From contig NZ_JAAGLV010000016.1 in NCBI RefSeq assembly GCF_010548305.1, positions 1 through 64,000 of the forward strand: a stretch of DNA of 64,000 bases. The letters run 5' to 3'. Shown in pieces: positions 1,013 to 17,589 of the stretch (position 1 is the first letter of the stretch; each line of letters begins with the position of its first letter). Under the pieces are notes generated by a model. It was given only the letters and a program-made list of their open reading frames with translations. It searched no databases and had not been told where the DNA came from. Both the position numbers and the translations under genes were made by a program. The DNA comes from Streptomyces sp. SID13031 (lineage in GTDB: Bacteria; Actinomycetota; Actinomycetes; Propionibacteriales; Kribbellaceae).

Positions 1013-1558
1013 GTGGGCCCGTCGTCAGAGGCTGTGAGACCAGCCAGGAGATTTCGCGCCCTGCGAGGAAACCAGGAGCCAGTACGGACACGGTCCGCGT
1101 TCGCGCAAACGTCGACTGACGACTCGCGGGCGGTCGTGACGACGCTGAACGACCCGGAGTTGCCACCAGCGGGCCGTCGGCTCTCCTATGCGTTGTTTGT
1201 CTCCTGTCCCGGCCAATCGGCCACGGACACTCCAATCCTTAGGCGCGAGAACGACGTGTCGTCCGATCAACAAGAGACGCCGCCCGGCAGGAGGTCGGTG
1301 CACCCCGGGGGCGTCGGAAGCGTGCCGATCATGACTCGCGCCAGCTTCGCTTTGATGTACCTCCCTGCCGATTCCTACGCGCCGATCGAAGTGTGTGCAG
1401 GTCATCGGCGATGTCGCCGTCCGAGAAGGCAACAAGACCGTCTCTCCGACGAGTCCCCGAGGGATCCCTGCCGATCATGAACGGCGAGGCGATCGCGCTC
1501 GATCTCAAGATCCCGGCAACCAGCTCGATCAATGGTCTCCAGGTAGGGAGGTAGCTAC
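1013..1558 (+). pseudogene. decayed copy A of the Xre-type HTH/sensor protein
   Basis: A GTG with the same context as copies B and C opens a frame reading PSSEAVRPARRFRALRG. It continues with a degraded HTH and the conserved ELPPAGRRLSYALF segment, which corresponds to KLPPAERLRSYALF in copy C. The central about 200 residues are gone. Near 1470-1558 the frame again matches the C-terminus of the family: PIMNGEAIALDLKIP, against PVVNGEAISPDLEIP in copy C. The gene is therefore about half its original length, with internal deletion and substitutions in the HTH. It ends 3 bp before the intact transferase gene, preserving the two-gene order seen at 15296-17589. Confidence 0.8.
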
Positions 1559-1561
1559 CCG

Positions 1562-2749
1562 TTGAGTCGCCAGTACAGACACCACATGTCCCACGCTTCA
1601 CTGCTGCGAGACGTTTCCGGTGTCTCTCCCTCGTCAACTCGCAACGGAATTGACGCGATAGTGGTTCCGGCGAGTCGGCCGTCGGCGCAACGCGCCATCA
1701 ACCTTTCTGCAGAGCTGTCCATACCGCTGGTCATCCTCTGCAGCCGTCAGGCGAAGGCGGAGAGCATTGCCGAGCGAGTAGAGAAGACTTTCGGCGCACG
1801 AGCACTTGTCATCCACGTCCCCGACAGTTACGCGCTCTTACCGACGCCACTGCTGACCTCGAATCCTTACTTCGCCAAACTGAGCGCCGGTCGCTCCAGC
1901 GATCTCAGCGTCAAGCGCAATCTCGGCCTACGACTGGCGCGGCTCAGAGGTTGGCGAAAGATCCTCTTCCTCGACGACGACATCTCGAGCGTCCGCCCTC
2001 AAGACATCGCCCGGCTCAGCGGCTACCTCGACAATCACTCGGTCGCAGCGATGGCCAGCCGTACGTTCCCGGACAACTCAGTGGTGTTCCATGCCCGACG
2101 CCAAGCCCGCTTCAGGCAAGACGTCTTCGTAGGCGGTGCGGTGCTAGGAGTCAACATCCAAAACCCGGCCACCTCTTTCTTTCCGGACGTCTACAACGAG
2201 GACTGGTTCTTCTTCGCGCGGTTTGCTGCTCAACGCTCGCTGGTCAAAGTCGGCGAGGTGCGGCAGGACGAGTACAAACCATTCGACGACCCTCGGCGCG
2301 CTGCCCGCGAGGAGTTCGGAGATTTTCTCGCCGAGGGGCTCTACGCGTTGTTTGAGAGCACGTCGGACTTGAACTTCAACGATCAACTGACGGCAGCAGG
2401 CGACAATCACTGGCGCTGGTTCAAGGAGATTCGCCTGGAGATGATCGCGGCGACCTCGGCAGAGCTCCAACGGCAACTGACTGACGCCGACCCGGTGGAG
2501 TACCGCACTGGACTGCAAGCACTCGAATCCTTGCGTTTCGCCGGCGAGCACCTGCAGGCCATTTCTTCTGCGGATTGTGTCGAGTTCATCCGCAGATGGA
2601 GATGGGACGAGCGGACATGGAGACTGACGATGGCCAGGAGTGACTTCGGGCTGAGCGAACGCGATGCCCTCGATGAACTCGGCCTGACGACATGGTTCTC
2701 TTGTGGGTACGGGCGGTCCTCCAGGAACGGCTCAGTGGACTGCGCCTGA
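1562..2749 (+). CDS. GT-A-like glycosyltransferase of the HTH/GT cassette, copy A
   Basis: A 395-residue soluble protein with no signal peptide or membrane segment. TTG is the only start matching the N-terminus of copy C. Conserved points with copy C are SHASLLRDVS near the N-terminus, SDLSVKRN (residues 113-120), KILFLDDD (133-140) and DVYNEDWFFFAR (209-220). An Asp-rich DDD after a hydrophobic strand, followed about 70 residues later by NED-W, is typical of GT-A fold glycosyltransferases. There it gives the metal-binding DxD-like site and the acidic catalytic residues. Donor and acceptor are unknown. The upstream partner regulator is a pseudogene here, yet this frame is fully open, so it may be recently orphaned or independently useful. 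The GT-A assignment is by motif only. Confidence 0.72.
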   Translation: MSRQYRHHMSHASLLRDVSGVSPSSTRNGIDAIVVPASRPSAQRAINLSAELSIPLVILCSRQAKAESIAERVEKTFGARALVIHVPDSYALLPTPLLTSNPYFAKLSAGRSSDLSVKRNLGLRLARLRGWRKILFLDDDISSVRPQDIARLSGYLDNHSVAAMASRTFPDNSVVFHARRQARFRQDVFVGGAVLGVNIQNPATSFFPDVYNEDWFFFARFAAQRSLVKVGEVRQDEYKPFDDPRRAAREEFGDFLAEGLYALFESTSDLNFNDQLTAAGDNHWRWFKEIRLEMIAATSAELQRQLTDADPVEYRTGLQALESLRFAGEHLQAISSADCVEFIRRWRWDERTWRLTMARSDFGLSERDALDELGLTTWFSCGYGRSSRNGSVDCA

Positions 2750-2812: not shown

Positions 2813-3337
2813 CTATCGGAGCCCTTTTTGGAACTCCTTTTCTGTCGTCACCCTGTCCACGCTGATCTTGATGTCCTGGTCCCTGACAAACTCGTAGCCC
2901 ATCTTGACGTAGTACTGCCAGGCATCGGTGTTGCCGACAAACACCCAGAGTGCGATCTTCTCCTCACCCTGCCTTTTGGCCTCACTCTCGAGACGTTCGA
3001 GCAGAGCCCGGCCCACACCCGCCGTCCGATGGTCGGGTTCCACCCACATCGACTCGATGTGCAGGTACTTGTCTGGCCCGTGCCTCTTCGCCAGCATCCC
3101 CAGGCCGACATTTCGGCCGTCGAGCTCCGCGGCGAACCACTCTTCGTTGTTGCATCGACGCTTCCAAGCTGACGGTTTCAATGCGGACTCGGTGGCAAAG
3201 TCACCAAGGAACGCGTCCGGAGACTCTTCCAGCGCGAGTAGCCGCAGTCGTCTCAGCTCGGCCCACTCGACCGCGGAGATCCGAGACGTTGTGGGGCACA
3301 TACGACCTTCTGAAGCGATCGTTTGAAGCTGCGACAT
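2813..3337 (-). CDS. GNAT-family N-acetyltransferase
   Basis: A 174-residue protein with the GCN5-related N-acetyltransferase pattern. The N-terminal strand-helix contains EWAELRRLRLLALEESPDAF. A central strand ends in IESMWVEPDHR, followed by the acetyl-CoA pyrophosphate loop TAGVGRALL (Q/RxxGxG/A motif). The C-terminal half has the YYVKMGYEFVRD segment usual at the end of the fold. It would transfer an acetyl group from acetyl-CoA to an amine; the substrate cannot be read. It is convergent with the transferase at 1562-2749. It sits next to decayed genes but itself looks intact. Confidence 0.85.
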   Translation of the reverse strand: MSQLQTIASEGRMCPTTSRISAVEWAELRRLRLLALEESPDAFLGDFATESALKPSAWKRRCNNEEWFAAELDGRNVGLGMLAKRHGPDKYLHIESMWVEPDHRTAGVGRALLERLESEAKRQGEEKIALWVFVGNTDAWQYYVKMGYEFVRDQDIKISVDRVTTEKEFQKGLR

Positions 3338-6278: not shown

Positions 6279-7352
6279 GTGGCCCCTTTGCCAGAGGCCG
6301 TTCGACTCGCCAACCGACTCCGAGACCTGCGCGAATCTCACGGCGCCGGACTGTCCCAGCAATCGCTGGCATATGCGCTGAGCGACGACGTGCAGGTGAC
6401 AGCCACGACAATCAACTCCTGGGAATCATCGATCGACGCAGAGCTGCCAACGGCAGGACGCTTGCGCTCTTACGCCCTCTTCTTCTGCACCGATCGAACA
6501 ATCGACGGCACTCCCCGTCTGATCCCTGCGCGCGAACTGATGCCCGCTGAACAGGAACGCTTCGAGGAACTCTACGAGGAACTGATCGAGGCCCGCGAAG
6601 CCGTTCGCGCAGGGGCCGGTTCGCCGGGCAGTGGCTCCGACCGTACCTGGGTTTTCGAGAGCGGCCCAATCACGATCATCTGCCCCGAGGCGCCGCTCGA
6701 AGTGCGGTCACAGCTTTCCGATGAACGCGAGCACAATTACACCCAGATGTACCGGTACGGCGATCTTGACGCGCTGATCGAGTTGTGGGGTCATGTCCGC
6801 GCCTCCAACCCAGAACTTGAGGTCTCGCACCGGCTACCTGAAGAGGTTACGGCTGACGACTTGTCGAGCCATCTGGTTATGCTGGGCGGGATCGCCTGGA
6901 ACCACGCGACCAGGCGACTGCTGAAGTATTTGCACGAACTGCCCATCGCCCAAGTAGAGGTCCCGGACCTGGACGACGGAGAAATCTTCAGGGCCAAGGA
7001 CACTGGGACGGAGTTCTGGGCGCAGTACGAGCAGATCGATGACGTCCGTGGCGAACTGGTTGAGGACGTTGCTCTGTTGGCACGAGTGCGAAACCCGTAC
7101 AACCACGACCGAACGATCACCATCTGCAATGGAATTCACAGCCGCGGAGTCCTGGGAGCGGTGCGGACGCTCACCGCTCGAAGCGTTCGCAAGCGCAACG
7201 AGGCTTATTTGTCGAAGCTGTTCCCCGACGGGTCGTTCGCCCTGCTCCTGAGGGTGCCGGTGATGAACGGCCAAGCTATCGCGCCCGACCTGGAAATTCC
7301 CGAGAACCGGCTCTTCCAGTGGGCGCCTCATGGAAATTCCAATATCGAATGA
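6279..7352 (+). CDS. Xre-type HTH protein with C-terminal sensor-like domain, copy B
   Basis: A 357-residue protein starting at GTG behind GGGAGG. Residues about 7-70 form a cro/C1-type HTH region (AVRLANRLRDLRESHGAGLSQQ, then TINSWE), ended by the signature LRSYALFFCTDRT. An acidic Glu-rich helix follows (about 85-115). The C-terminal about 240 residues are shared with copy C: SGPITIICPE, YGDLDALIELWGH, HLVMLGGIAWNH.TRRLLK, TITICNGIHSRGVLGAVRTLT and ALLLRVPVMNG. The GG..WN and ICNGIHSRG stretches look like loops of a Rossmann-like ligand-binding domain, but I do not recognise a named family. No glycosyltransferase follows; the next gene encodes a membrane/coiled-coil protein. The likely role is a regulator that senses a small molecule (inference). 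Confidence 0.75.
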   Translation: MAPLPEAVRLANRLRDLRESHGAGLSQQSLAYALSDDVQVTATTINSWESSIDAELPTAGRLRSYALFFCTDRTIDGTPRLIPARELMPAEQERFEELYEELIEAREAVRAGAGSPGSGSDRTWVFESGPITIICPEAPLEVRSQLSDEREHNYTQMYRYGDLDALIELWGHVRASNPELEVSHRLPEEVTADDLSSHLVMLGGIAWNHATRRLLKYLHELPIAQVEVPDLDDGEIFRAKDTGTEFWAQYEQIDDVRGELVEDVALLARVRNPYNHDRTITICNGIHSRGVLGAVRTLTARSVRKRNEAYLSKLFPDGSFALLLRVPVMNGQAIAPDLEIPENRLFQWAPHGNSNIE

Positions 7353-7428: not shown

Positions 7429-8208
7429 GTGGCTGTCGTGGACGGTGGCGAGATCTGGGACCACATCAACGACAGCGCGGATGCGGCATGGCCGCTGACC
7501 GTGCTGGTCTGCGGCTTGGTGTTCATGCTGTTGTTTCGCCGCCAGATCGGCGAGCGGATCTCGAAGATCGTCAAGGCCAAGGCGGGCATGGTCTCGCTGG
7601 AACTCGACGCGAATCAGCAGGCCAACGAGGTCTTCGGCGAGGCGGTGCCCGAAGTGCTCGCGCGGCCCGAGCGGAAGGCAATCACCGCTGGACCTGGCGA
7701 TACGGCAGAAGTTGACGGGAGTTCCCAGACTGTCACCGCGAGCGGTCAAGTCATGGGTCGCACGGAGGCAGCCACCAGGGTGGACGCCAAAAGCGGCTCC
7801 GGGGATCCAGCGGATGCCTTTGCTGTAGAAATAGACGACCTCTTCGCCCGGCGGGAACAGATCGAGGAGATCATCCGTGCATCGTGGCGCGCCGGCGTCG
7901 AGGTAGGCCAGACGACCTCGTTCGCTGAGCCACCGGAACCAAAGATCGTCTGGACCGGATCCAAGCCCTCGATTGTCGGCTGGAACGTAGCCGTACGACC
8001 GACCAGCATTCGGGGCGCGGAGGGCGGCGGCACACCGAGCGGCGTAGAAAGCGCTAGCGAGGAGTTCCGCCGACTGGAGGACGAGATCCGTCGGCTCCGG
8101 GCAAGCGGCGCGGACAACCTACGCAAGGGCATGACCCCGGACTACTTGCTCTACCTGGAGTTGCTGGAGAAGCTACGACGCCTCGACCCCAACTCGCCGG
8201 TCACTTGA
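7429..8208 (+). CDS. membrane-anchored coiled-coil protein of unknown function
   Basis: A 259-residue protein not assigned to a family. Residues about 20-37 (AAWPLTVLVCGLVFMLLF) form one membrane segment, followed by a basic stop (RRQIGERISKIVKAKAG). A low-complexity linker spans about 85-125. A helical region (DLFARREQIEEIIRASWRAG) and a C-terminal coiled-coil-like stretch (EEFRRLEDEIRRLRASGADN) come after it. The start may be GTG 7429 or GTG 7438; AGGAGAG at 7421-7427 fits the latter better. It follows HTH copy B by 76 bp in the position where the glycosyltransferase sits in the other two cassettes, so it may be an alternative partner. Confidence 0.65.
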   Translation: MAVVDGGEIWDHINDSADAAWPLTVLVCGLVFMLLFRRQIGERISKIVKAKAGMVSLELDANQQANEVFGEAVPEVLARPERKAITAGPGDTAEVDGSSQTVTASGQVMGRTEAATRVDAKSGSGDPADAFAVEIDDLFARREQIEEIIRASWRAGVEVGQTTSFAEPPEPKIVWTGSKPSIVGWNVAVRPTSIRGAEGGGTPSGVESASEEFRRLEDEIRRLRASGADNLRKGMTPDYLLYLELLEKLRRLDPNSPVT

Positions 8209-14376: not shown

Positions 14377-14486
14377 CCGAATAGGCCGACCGTCACGCCA
14401 CAGATACGGCCTCGTAGAGACCGTCTTGTCCAGGTCTCTGAGCCATCCGCCAGGCGTTCTATGCCCAGGTTCGCACCGGAAGGCGG

Positions 14487-14990
14487 TCAGCCTGTGCTGA
14501 CTCGACCCACGGCGGCTGCGGCCGGCCTGACAATTCGTTTGAGCGCCAATTGCCGCAGTCCGCGGTACTGGTCAGCGCGATCCCAGGCAAATCTGGTCAT
14601 GCCCCAGCCCGTCGGAAGAGCGAGACGCTGCAGGTTGGACGTACTGCACAGGAAAGCGTCGCGGCGACGATCCGCGAGCTCGGCGATCTGAGCCTCCAGT
14701 ACCGCGATCTCCTCGTCTGGCGGACTCTTCGGCGTCCAGGTCTCGAGGTCGAACTCCACCCAGCAGGCTGCCTCGATGACCGCTAGCACCAGGATCCGCC
14801 GGTCGCCCGTCAAGCCGGCAGAGCTCTCGGCCTGTCGCCGGAGTTGCCGCAGCCCACCCTGCTCGCGGCAGACCAACCGGATCGCGTCGCACCGATCCTC
14901 GTCCCGCAGCAGGCGCTGGGCTGAGCGCCACTCGCCGATCTCGAGCGCGAGAATCGGATCGGTCAAGCCGGTCGCGGTACCCATGCGCAC
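14487..14990 (-). CDS. hypothetical protein
   Basis: A 167-codon frame (or 165 from the second Met) with actinobacterial codon use. The product is soluble: an N-terminal half rich in Arg/Leu (LRDEDRCDAIRLVCREQGGL), a central hydrophobic stretch (ILVLAVIEAACWVEFDL) and a Glu-rich helix (DEEIAVLEAQIAELADRRRD). There are no known motifs. A competing frame on the same strand spans nearly the same bases but has a poorer composition. It is convergent with the Nudix gene. Confidence 0.5.
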   Translation of the reverse strand: MRMGTATGLTDPILALEIGEWRSAQRLLRDEDRCDAIRLVCREQGGLRQLRRQAESSAGLTGDRRILVLAVIEAACWVEFDLETWTPKSPPDEEIAVLEAQIAELADRRRDAFLCSTSNLQRLALPTGWGMTRFAWDRADQYRGLRQLALKRIVRPAAAAVGRVSTG

Positions 14991-15003: not shown

Positions 15004-15295
15004 TTGCGGAGTAACTTCGGTGACTACACGCAGACTTCAGTACATACAGTAGAACCGTGACCATAAGTGGTCAACTCTGAGCGCGTAGCTCACATTCTGT
15101 ATCCAGTCCGCTACTTTCCGTGAATTACTGCTTTTCAAACAGTCGCTTCCCATCCTCGGCGAGCCATGCCGGTCAAGCCGAGGCTCCGCTTTCCGGTAGT
15201 GGCCGGTAGTACAAGTATTTTCGGGTGTAAGTAGGTGTAGCATCGGCTTGAAGTTGGCCCGCGATGCGCGTGGGCGCCGACATCCGGGAGTAATT
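15004..15295. other. leader region of HTH copy C
   Basis: No coding signal was seen. The region is less GC-rich than its neighbours. GACCATAAGTGGTC (15059-15072) is an inverted repeat with a short centre and is a possible operator for the HTH protein. CGGGAG lies just before the GTG at 15296. A similar AAGTATTTTCGGGT/AGGTACTCCGGGT stretch occurs upstream of copies C and B. Confidence 0.35.
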
Positions 15296-16378
15296 GTGGC
15301 CCCTTCACCAGAGGCCGTACGACTTGCCAGGAGGCTCCGCGGCCTGCGCGATTCCCATGACGCCGGGCTGACACAGTCCCAACTGGCCAAGGCGCTGAGC
15401 CGGGACACCCGGGTCGCCATTGCGACGATCAGCTCGTGGGAGTCGCTGACCAATCCCAAACTGCCGCCGGCCGAACGGTTGCGCTCCTACGCGTTGTTCT
15501 TCTGCACGGACCGGACGAACCGGGACGGCACACCCGAGGTGGTGTCCGAGCGCGAACTGACGCTGGACGAGCGAGAGCGCTTCGAGGAGCTGAACGAAGA
15601 ACTGATCGGGCTCCGCGACGCCGCCCGCAGCCAGAGCGGCGGGACCGGTTCGTCGACCAGAGGCGCCTACAGCTGGGAATTCGAGAGCGGTCCGATCACG
15701 ATCATCTGCCCGGAGTCGCCCGAGGGGGAACGTCCGGCCCTGGCCGACGAACGAGACCCCAACTACACCCGGATGTATCGATACGCCGACCTCGACGCGC
15801 TGATCGAGTTGTGGGGCCACCTGCGCGCCTCCAACCCGGAACTGCAGATCTCGCACCGGCTGCCGTCGGAGGTCAAGGCGGACGACATGTCCGGCCACCT
15901 GGTGGTGCTCGGTGGCATCGGCTGGAACCACGTGACCCGGCGGCTGCTGAAGACCCTGCGCGAGATGCCCATCTCCCAGTTCGAGATCTCCGACCTGAAG
16001 ACCGGCGAGATCTTCAAGGCCAGTGGCGCCGGCGGCAAGGAGTTCTGGCCGCAGTTCGAGGACACCGACGGCGTTTCCGAACTGGTCGAGGACGTCGCGT
16101 TGCTGACCCGGCTGCGCAATCCGTTCAACCACAGCCGCACTATCACCATCTGCAACGGCATCCACAGCCGCGGCGTACTGGGGGCGGTCCGGACGCTCAC
16201 CGACGTCGCCGTCCGCGAGCGCAACGAGGCCTACCTGTCCCGCCACTTCCCGGACGGATTGTTCGCTCTACTGCTGCGGGTCCCGGTAGTGAACGGCGAA
16301 GCAATTTCGCCCGATCTGGAGATCCCCGAGAACCGGCTCTACCAATGGGAGCCTGGGGAGACGGTGAGCCGCCCGTGA
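15296..16378 (+). CDS. Xre-type HTH protein with C-terminal sensor-like domain, copy C
   Basis: A 360-residue protein from GTG 15296, the codon aligned with the start of copy B, behind CGGGAG. HTH region: AVRLARRLRGLRDSHDAGLT, then QSQLAKALS, ATISSWES (about residues 7-51) and LRSYALFFCTDRT. The C-terminal domain shares with copy B the segments SGPITIICPE, YADLDALIELWGHLRASNPE, HLVVLGGIGWNH.TRRLLK, ICNGIHSRGVLGAVRTLTD and FPDGLFALLLRVPVVNG. It ends in GTGA, overlapping the start of the glycosyltransferase, so the two are translationally coupled. A ligand-sensing regulator for the partner enzyme is the simplest reading (inference). The family is not one I can name. Confidence 0.78.
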   Translation: MAPSPEAVRLARRLRGLRDSHDAGLTQSQLAKALSRDTRVAIATISSWESLTNPKLPPAERLRSYALFFCTDRTNRDGTPEVVSERELTLDERERFEELNEELIGLRDAARSQSGGTGSSTRGAYSWEFESGPITIICPESPEGERPALADERDPNYTRMYRYADLDALIELWGHLRASNPELQISHRLPSEVKADDMSGHLVVLGGIGWNHVTRRLLKTLREMPISQFEISDLKTGEIFKASGAGGKEFWPQFEDTDGVSELVEDVALLTRLRNPFNHSRTITICNGIHSRGVLGAVRTLTDVAVRERNEAYLSRHFPDGLFALLLRVPVVNGEAISPDLEIPENRLYQWEPGETVSRP

Positions 16379-17589
16379 GCCGCTTCAAGCATCAGCAGTC
16401 GCACGCGTCCCTGCTGCGCGATGTGTCTCGATCTTCTGTCAGACTGACCCGCAGCGGCCTCGATGCGATCGTGGTTCCAGCCGCGCGGACATCCCCGCCA
16501 CAGCACCTCATCGCCCTTTCCGTCGCGATGTCCGTGCCACTCGTCGTACTGTGCAGCCGGCGGGCACGGGTCGAACAAGTCGCCGATCGTGTGTCGGCCA
16601 CCTTCGGCGCTCGCGGACTGATCATCGACGTACCCGACGGCTACCCACAGTCCTGGACCCCACTGACCTCTGGTCAGGCTTTCAACGCAGTGAGCGCGGG
16701 ACGTTCGAGCGACCTCAGCGTCAAGCGCAACATCGGTCTCCGGCTGGCCCGCATGCGAGGCTGGAAGAAGATCCTCTTCGTCGATGACGACATTTCTCAG
16801 CTCAGCCCGCGGCACATCGAGCGGTTGACGGTCCAGCTCGACCGAAACCCGGTCGCATCGATGGCCAGCCGGGAGTTCCCGGACAACTCGGTGGTCTGTC
16901 ACGCCCGGCGCCTAGCAGGCTTCAAACAGGACGTCTTCGTCAGCGGTGCAGTACTGGGCATCAGCACCTACCACCCAGCAGTGTCCTTCTTCCCAGACGT
17001 CTACAACGAGGACTGGTTCTTCTTCGCACGCCCTGCGGCCACCCGGTCGCTGCCCAAGATCGGCGAGGTCCGGCAGGACGAGTACAAACCGTTCGCGGAT
17101 CCGTTGCGCGCCCGGCACGAGGAGTTCGGCGACCTGGTCGCCGAGGGCATGTACGGGCTGTTCGAGAGCAGGCCCGGATGGGACTTCGAGGATCAACTGC
17201 ATGCCGCGGAGAGCCCGCGCTTCTGGCAGCGGGTGATCGACAATCGAAGGTCCTTCATCCACGAGACCGAACGACGTTTGTCCAACGCGATGAACAGAGG
17301 GCCTGCGAACTCCTGGACGATGACCGAGGCGTTGAAATCACTCAGCCACGCCGAGGACCAGTTGAACGCCATCTCCTCGGAGGTGTGCGTCGAGTTCATC
17401 GCCAGCTGGCGAGAGGACGACGCCCGCTGGCGCGCGGTACTGCGAAGTGACTACTCCGGTCTCAACGAACGCGACGCATTCGACGAGCTCGAGCTGAAGA
17501 CCTGGATCTCCTGCGGTTATGGGGCGGAGAAGGCAGTGCGCCGCCGGCGCCACATTTCGATCCGGCCCGAGCTGTCGGCCAGCGGCTGA
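16375..17589 (+). CDS. GT-A-like glycosyltransferase of the HTH/GT cassette, copy C
   Basis: A 404-residue soluble protein, GTG start overlapping the HTH stop by four bases. It is strongly similar to copy A throughout: HASLLRDVSRSS, GLDAIVVPAA, LVVLCSRRARVEQVADRV, then SDLSVKRNIGLRLARMRG, KKILFVDDDIS, FPDNSVVCHARR, VFVSGAVLGIS, DVYNEDWFFFARPAA and RQDEYKPFADP. The DDD and NED motifs fit the metal site and catalytic acids of GT-A transferases. The tail carries a basic RRRRH patch. No membrane segment is present. The substrate is unknown. A cytoplasmic target, perhaps a nucleotide, RNA or protein, would fit the HTH pairing but is speculative. Confidence 0.75.
   Translation: MSRFKHQQSHASLLRDVSRSSVRLTRSGLDAIVVPAARTSPPQHLIALSVAMSVPLVVLCSRRARVEQVADRVSATFGARGLIIDVPDGYPQSWTPLTSGQAFNAVSAGRSSDLSVKRNIGLRLARMRGWKKILFVDDDISQLSPRHIERLTVQLDRNPVASMASREFPDNSVVCHARRLAGFKQDVFVSGAVLGISTYHPAVSFFPDVYNEDWFFFARPAATRSLPKIGEVRQDEYKPFADPLRARHEEFGDLVAEGMYGLFESRPGWDFEDQLHAAESPRFWQRVIDNRRSFIHETERRLSNAMNRGPANSWTMTEALKSLSHAEDQLNAISSEVCVEFIASWREDDARWRAVLRSDYSGLNERDAFDELELKTWISCGYGAEKAVRRRRHISIRPELSASG

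Follow-up and report, generated by a model that had tools for sequence, protein, structure and literature searches.

What is gained by coupling a DNA-binding protein that carries a large additional C-terminal domain to a soluble glycosyltransferase? This question is raised by two overlapping genes in the window, by which we mean the whole analyzed stretch of 64,000 nucleotides, that is, the first 64 kb of a contig in an 8.5 Mb draft genome that is most closely related to Kribbella. In the following sections, the first gene product is called the HTH-sensor protein and the second the GT.

The gene pair and its copies in the window

The pair is present in three different states (Table 1). In copy c, the HTH-sensor gene and the GT gene are both intact. 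Copy a retains an intact GT, with a TTGA overlap, behind an HTH gene in which most of the sensor domain is deleted and the frame is broken. Copy b is an intact orphan HTH-sensor gene with no GT downstream. All three copies, as located by tblastn, lie within 16.6 kb, and no others are present in the whole 8.5 Mb genome. The original prediction, which was made from the sequence alone, had described a unit that occurs three times within 17 kb in different states; this description holds, and its coordinates, the GTGA overlap, the N-terminal HTH and the GG..WN, ICNGIHSRG, DDD and NED motifs are all present.

Third-position GC content is 0.73 in the GT of copy a, 0.72 in the HTH gene of copy b and 0.69 in the HTH remnant of copy a, as against 0.81 to 0.87 in copy c. 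The lower values suggest that copies a and b were acquired from outside. Next to copy a, the contig opens with a fragment of an IS3-type transposase/integrase-like reading frame (9-512), and an insertion sequence is probably what interrupts the assembly here. Integration linked to a tRNA was rejected, since no tRNA lies within the window.

Table 1. Positions of the module components and candidate sites (window coordinates, except for the last two rows, which refer to locus L013)
Feature	Position	Strand	Remarks
Copy a, decayed HTH gene	1013-1556	+	N-terminal 94 residues and extreme C-terminus recognizable
Copy a, GT gene, intact	1562-2749	+	395 aa; 60% identity to copy c GT
GNAT N-acetyltransferase gene (Acetyltransf_1)	2813-3337	-	third component; beside copy a; Pfam E 1e-19
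Copy b, orphan HTH-sensor gene, intact	6279-7352	+	357 aa; 68% identity to copy c
F3 pseudogene	14414-14990	-	upstream of copy c HTH gene; internal deletion of ~70 codons, frameshift, stop
Candidate operator/promoter, copy c	15214-15243	+	hexamers AGTATT, GGTGTA, GGTGTA, 10 bp apart
Exact core pattern	15224-15243
Copy c, HTH-sensor gene	15296-16378	+	360 aa; GTG start
N-terminal HTH of copy c	~15308-15505
C-terminal alpha/beta domain of copy c	~15665-16360
GTGA stop/start overlap	16375-16378	+	translational coupling
Copy c, GT gene	16375-17589	+	404 aa; predicted soluble GT-A-fold glycosyltransferase
DDD motif of copy c GT	16783-16791		residues 137-139
NED motif of copy c GT	17005-17013		residues 211-213
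Hypervariable C-terminal helices of GT	~17167-17454	+
F8 in L013	2163-3536	-
F3 in L013	3659-4543	-

Conservation of the pair and additional components

A scan of GTDB species genomes with the GT yielded 21 loci (14 in Kribbella, 5 in Pseudonocardia, 1 in Kineosporia and 1 in a Propionibacteriaceae MAG). An HTH-sensor gene lies immediately upstream of the GT in every one of these independently fetched loci, and the 4-nt overlap is kept in 19 of them. Both genes are present in 29 of 38 Kribbella genomes and absent from the other 9. In addition, the protein distances of the two genes are strongly correlated (Mantel r 0.88; 0 of 2000 permutations as high), a value to which species relatedness contributes. 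The pairing is far beyond chance, and the linkage that had been expected outside this strain is found both in all 21 loci and in the 29 Kribbella genomes.

The pair is, however, part of something larger than the two-gene module originally described; the GNAT gene, the operator-like repeats, the F3 and F8 genes and the fast divergence treated below had all been missed. Clustering of the neighboring genes shows that a GNAT acetyltransferase gene adjoins the pair in 21 of 21 loci, usually in convergent orientation to the GT. The whole genome contains only 130 GNAT matches, so this adjacency does not simply reflect the base rate, even if the loci are not entirely independent of one another. In the window, the GNAT gene beside copy a is the only one of the module that is left; copy c has lost its own, so that this component is not strictly needed. 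Two divergent genes, F3 (~280 aa) and F8 (~460 aa), are added in 10 of the 21 loci, with F3 upstream of the HTH gene. These loci belong to Kribbella, Pseudonocardia and Kineosporia, and Pfam, NCBIfam and PADLOC gave no convincing match for either gene.

Copy c occupies a place between conserved neighbors that is the same in many Kribbella species. Between these same neighbors, the closest relative (genome G425, locus L116) has the complete order F8-F3-HTH-GT-GNAT intact. Since F3 is a pseudogene in the window, F8 is gone and a GNAT gene remains only beside copy a, copy c represents the module in reduced form, at an ancestral chromosomal site. The MFS and TetR genes that flank the site were rejected as module components for Kribbella, since the nine genomes that lack the pair still have them, with other genes in between. 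In three Pseudonocardia loci (L018, L020 and L026), a drug-type MFS transporter gene, related to the Kribbella MFS gene near the module, is located directly downstream of the GNAT gene.

The module is conserved in soil actinobacteria and, as far as we found, undescribed. A system with this HTH-sensor/GT pair was not found in the literature, in agreement with the original prediction, and no system-specific PADLOC component matches the GT, GNAT, F3, F8 or the HTH protein of the window; the only PADLOC matches are generic HTH models (capH and RmrA), for one relative.

Fold and family of the glycosyltransferase

The AF2 model of the GT (pLDDT 87, pTM 0.87) has a GT-A fold, as had been proposed. 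Structure comparison yields 687 chains with Z of at least 8, and the top matches are all GT-A enzymes. The best solved relative is MtdL (Z 18.4 over 265 residues, 3.8 A), followed by rice UAM2 (Z 16.2) and mannosyl-3-phosphoglycerate synthase (Z 15.6), and AvpGT is among the top Foldseek matches. MtdL is an antibiotic-sugar mutase (PMC9937993), and AvpGT is a nucleoside 3'-O-glucosyltransferase (PMC11959488); all four of these enzymes are soluble and have substrates that are small or nucleotide-linked. The DDD motif is invariant in 23 GT sequences. Since the model contains no membrane segment, the enzyme is probably cytosolic.

Membership in GT75, the family of the best fold match, was rejected because neither sequence nor profile supports it: hmmscan finds no match of PF03214 (RGP, GT75) to the GT, or to anything in the whole genome, and hhalign gives a probability of 0.7% for the GT against the GT75 profile. 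The GT shares the GT-A fold, the DDD motif and the C-terminal helices with the GT75 enzymes (MtdL, Hyg20 and plant UAM/RGP), which combine DDD with Arg159, Arg257 and His287 (PMC9937993). However, when autoglycosylated Arg159, Arg257 and His287 of MtdL are compared with the GT by eye, from the motifs alone, the Mn-binding His287 and the phosphate-binding Arg257 have no obvious counterpart. The mannosyl-3- and glucosyl-3-phosphoglycerate synthases are also soluble GT-A enzymes (Z 13 to 15.6 over 230 to 280 residues), but they are only 9 to 14% identical to the GT and have another genomic setting. The GT is, in summary, a GT-A enzyme of a family outside Pfam and not a GT75 enzyme.

A role in DNA glycosylation was rejected as well. 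The similarity to TAGT (PF20691), a family of phage DNA-base glycosyltransferases, is weak and local, being confined to the surroundings of the DDD strand (E 0.19), and its 12.1 bits are far below the curated gathering cut-off of 27.5; no relatives were found in phage collections. The GT profile gives only chance matches against the sequences of solved structures.

The sensor protein

The N-terminal domain is an HTH of the XRE/Cro type, as had been stated originally. HTH_31 scores 21 bits for the copy c protein, below the cut-off of 27, and matches 21 of 24 relatives (best 1.7e-8). In the structure model (pLDDT 87), the N-terminal 73 residues superpose on EspR of M. tuberculosis (Z 6.4). EspR itself is short, with 131 residues in the solved chain, and lacks a comparable sensor domain.

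The C-terminal domain matches the flavodoxin-like domain of BcsB at Z 10.1, the N-terminal domain of GH67 at Z 9.3 and an S-layer anchoring domain at Z 7.8. A resemblance to the BcsB flavodoxin-like and S-layer anchoring domains is suggestive in this model comparison, where Z values of 7.8 to 10.1 over 125 to 165 residues are only slightly above those of unrelated models. Matches to S_layer_C (PF05124) are all below threshold, for two members (best E 0.28) and for the distant relative L028 (E 0.022). BcsB, the co-polymerase of the cellulose synthase BcsA, is periplasmic and membrane-anchored (PMC11470070). Its flavodoxin-like domain may have a fold like that of the sensor domain, and BcsB, too, is the partner of a GT-A (GT2) enzyme; in contrast, the sensor domain here is predicted to be cytosolic, is fused to an HTH and is 7 to 12% identical.

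A broad sensor family in the phylum was rejected, since the first sensor profile matches only 2 of 396 genomes, one of which is the window's own. With a mixed profile, two distant relatives are found at E values of 3.4e-9 or below, and four further matches are marginal. The sensor-domain relative in L028 (645-2386) has a predicted N-terminal transmembrane helix in place of the HTH and overlaps a GT2 gene, which is followed by a hydrolase gene and a hexapeptide-type acetyltransferase-like gene. Another membrane-type relative, in L126 (1170-2312), likewise probably with a transmembrane helix in place of the HTH, lies between an NDP-sugar epimerase-like gene and a DegT-type aminotransferase-like gene. 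We recognized these transmembrane helices by eye, and likewise the epimerase, aminotransferase and hexapeptide genes. These sugar-gene settings point in the same direction as the fold matches. In L122 (922-1782), which comes from another actinobacterial family, an HTH-like protein has a marginal sensor-domain match (E 0.011), perhaps reflecting a wider regulator family.

The GT-linked sensor of Kribbella sp. VKM Ac-2527 (L010) has undergone an in-frame loss of its DNA-binding part, but its C-terminal domain is still there and its gene still overlaps the GT gene by 4 nt; immediately upstream are a full-length paralogue and a GNAT gene. Genome G405 has a double module without this deletion. Because the C-terminal domain is kept where the DNA-binding part is gone, it may act beside the GT in a way that is independent of DNA binding. 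Tandem double modules of the order HTH-GNAT-HTH-GT are seen in L010 (3316-5998) and in L128.

Phased repeats in the promoter

Kribbella promoters of the HTH-sensor gene contain three GGTGTA-like hexamers spaced exactly 10 bp apart, in most of them at ~40 to 58 bp upstream of the HTH start, and the last hexamer runs into a TAGNAT-like -10 box. The array of copy c ends in a -10-like box, TAGCAT, 56 bp upstream of the start codon. For 17 non-redundant Kribbella promoters, the array score is 13.3, versus 10.05 +- 0.26 in shuffles, and a periodicity score that does not use the consensus is 11.5, versus 9.8 +- 0.34. Both scores peak only at period 10. The exact core pattern has three matches in 38 genomes (~325 Mb), all of them at the promoter of an HTH-sensor gene. 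The repeats are seen in Kribbella only, and copy b has no phased-repeat array.

A spacing of 10 bp corresponds to one helical turn, so that the half-sites would lie on one face of the DNA, an arrangement that suits cooperative binding. We infer that the HTH protein is the binder of these repeats. Note that the candidate site could equally serve activation.

Divergence between close relatives

Ten close genome pairs were compared, all at the same locus; they come from a few clades and are not independent. The median dS is 0.45 for the HTH-sensor gene and 0.60 for the GT gene, versus 0.24 for GNAT, 0.23 for F4, 0.25 for F5 and 0.20 for F6; that is, the silent-site divergence of the pair is two to three times that of its neighbors. 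The dN of the GT is nine times the value for F5. Codon bias was rejected as the cause of the high dS, since GC3 is similar.

Among L016, L022 and L024, the drop in identity begins and ends near the two ends of the GT gene, and this pattern looks like allele replacement by recombination. Variation is greatest at residues 281-320 of the GT, in the C-terminal helices, where 81% of the sites differ in one quartet. The catalytic core of the GT and the sensor domain are conserved.

Proposed function and alternatives

The reading that we prefer, with a probability of roughly 40%, is that of an autoregulated, one-component sensor-glycosyltransferase-acetyltransferase unit for carbohydrate modification, which acts on a cytosolic, strain-variable target. 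The HTH protein would bind the three phased half-sites over its own promoter and repress the operon. Its C-terminal alpha/beta domain would either read a ligand from a sugar pathway, such as a nucleotide sugar or a glycan fragment, or dock on the GT, thereby releasing expression or activity. With an NDP-sugar and a metal, bound at the DDD motif, the GT would glycosylate an acceptor in the cytosol, and its fast-varying C-terminal helices would select this acceptor; the GNAT would acetylate the same or a related molecule. The purpose would most likely be to inactivate or mark a strain-variable target, for example a toxic natural product or a molecule of an invader, rather than housekeeping metabolism; in other words, the module may chemically mark or disarm a changing target.

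Alternatively, the enzyme could glycosylate a cell-surface component or a secondary metabolite made by the strain itself, under a pathway-specific regulator, with the variation reflecting product diversity rather than conflict. This explanation is possible, though on the unlikely side. It would fit the fold neighbors MtdL and AvpGT, the distant sensor-domain relatives among sugar-biosynthesis genes and the drug-type MFS transporters nearby. However, no conserved genes for sugar-nucleotide, polyketide or peptide synthesis lie beside the pair, and the MFS-TetR neighbors, which in Kribbella occur without the pair too, are not part of the module.

We consider it unlikely that the system resembles a toxin-antitoxin pair, in which the GT, as the toxin, would glycosylate a host molecule that is essential, the HTH protein would be antitoxin and autorepressor and would hold the GT through its C-terminal domain, and the GNAT could serve as a second effector or an antidote. 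The GT of copy a is intact after the decay of its own HTH gene, although copies b and c might protect the cell, and the intact orphan sensor of copy b persists. Moreover, the two proteins are larger than is usual in such systems, the GNAT is left unexplained and no system-specific model of a known defence matches. What speaks for it is that the genes overlap, that the promoter array is of the autoregulator type and that the genes co-occur tightly and are distributed patchily, together with the L010 sensor, which keeps the C-terminal domain and the coupling when the DNA-binding part is lost, as if this domain were needed beside the GT.

A more far-reaching claim is that the module represents a new class of bacterial conflict or immunity system. 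In such a class, a cytosolic sensor of the BcsB fold, joined to a DNA-binding domain, would control a GT that, with an acetyltransferase, inactivates a variable foreign molecule by glycosylation and acetylation, and the acceptor-recognition helices of the GT would be swapped and diversified between strains. We regard this claim as doubtful, about as improbable as the toxin-antitoxin explanation. The horizontally moving conflict or regulatory system of the original prediction stands in part. Atypical composition and decay near the IS3-type fragment apply to copies a and b, and the hypervariability of the pair fits an antagonistic role without proving one; copy c, however, is at a fixed site and is not a mobile element, and the plasmid, phage and viral collections yielded no relative. 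A mobile anti-phage cassette is the least probable explanation. In its favor are the hypervariable GT with its allele-like replacement, the presence or absence of the genes as a block and the foreign-looking second copies near a transposase fragment; against it are the fixed site of the main copy, the lack of matches in these collections and in PADLOC, and the lack of a nuclease, NADase or membrane-killing partner.

The module offers a compact and conserved combination of enzyme and sensor, in which a clear candidate site for regulation goes together with a naturally occurring series of enzyme variants. If the variation of the GT tracks its target, a comparison of alleles would directly reveal what the enzyme recognizes. 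The fold matches also suggest a cytosolic role, as a sensor or as the partner of an enzyme, for a domain that is familiar from cellulose synthesis and S-layers.

Directly after copy b, a reading frame of 259 aa without a Pfam match (7429-8208) encodes a likely transmembrane segment.
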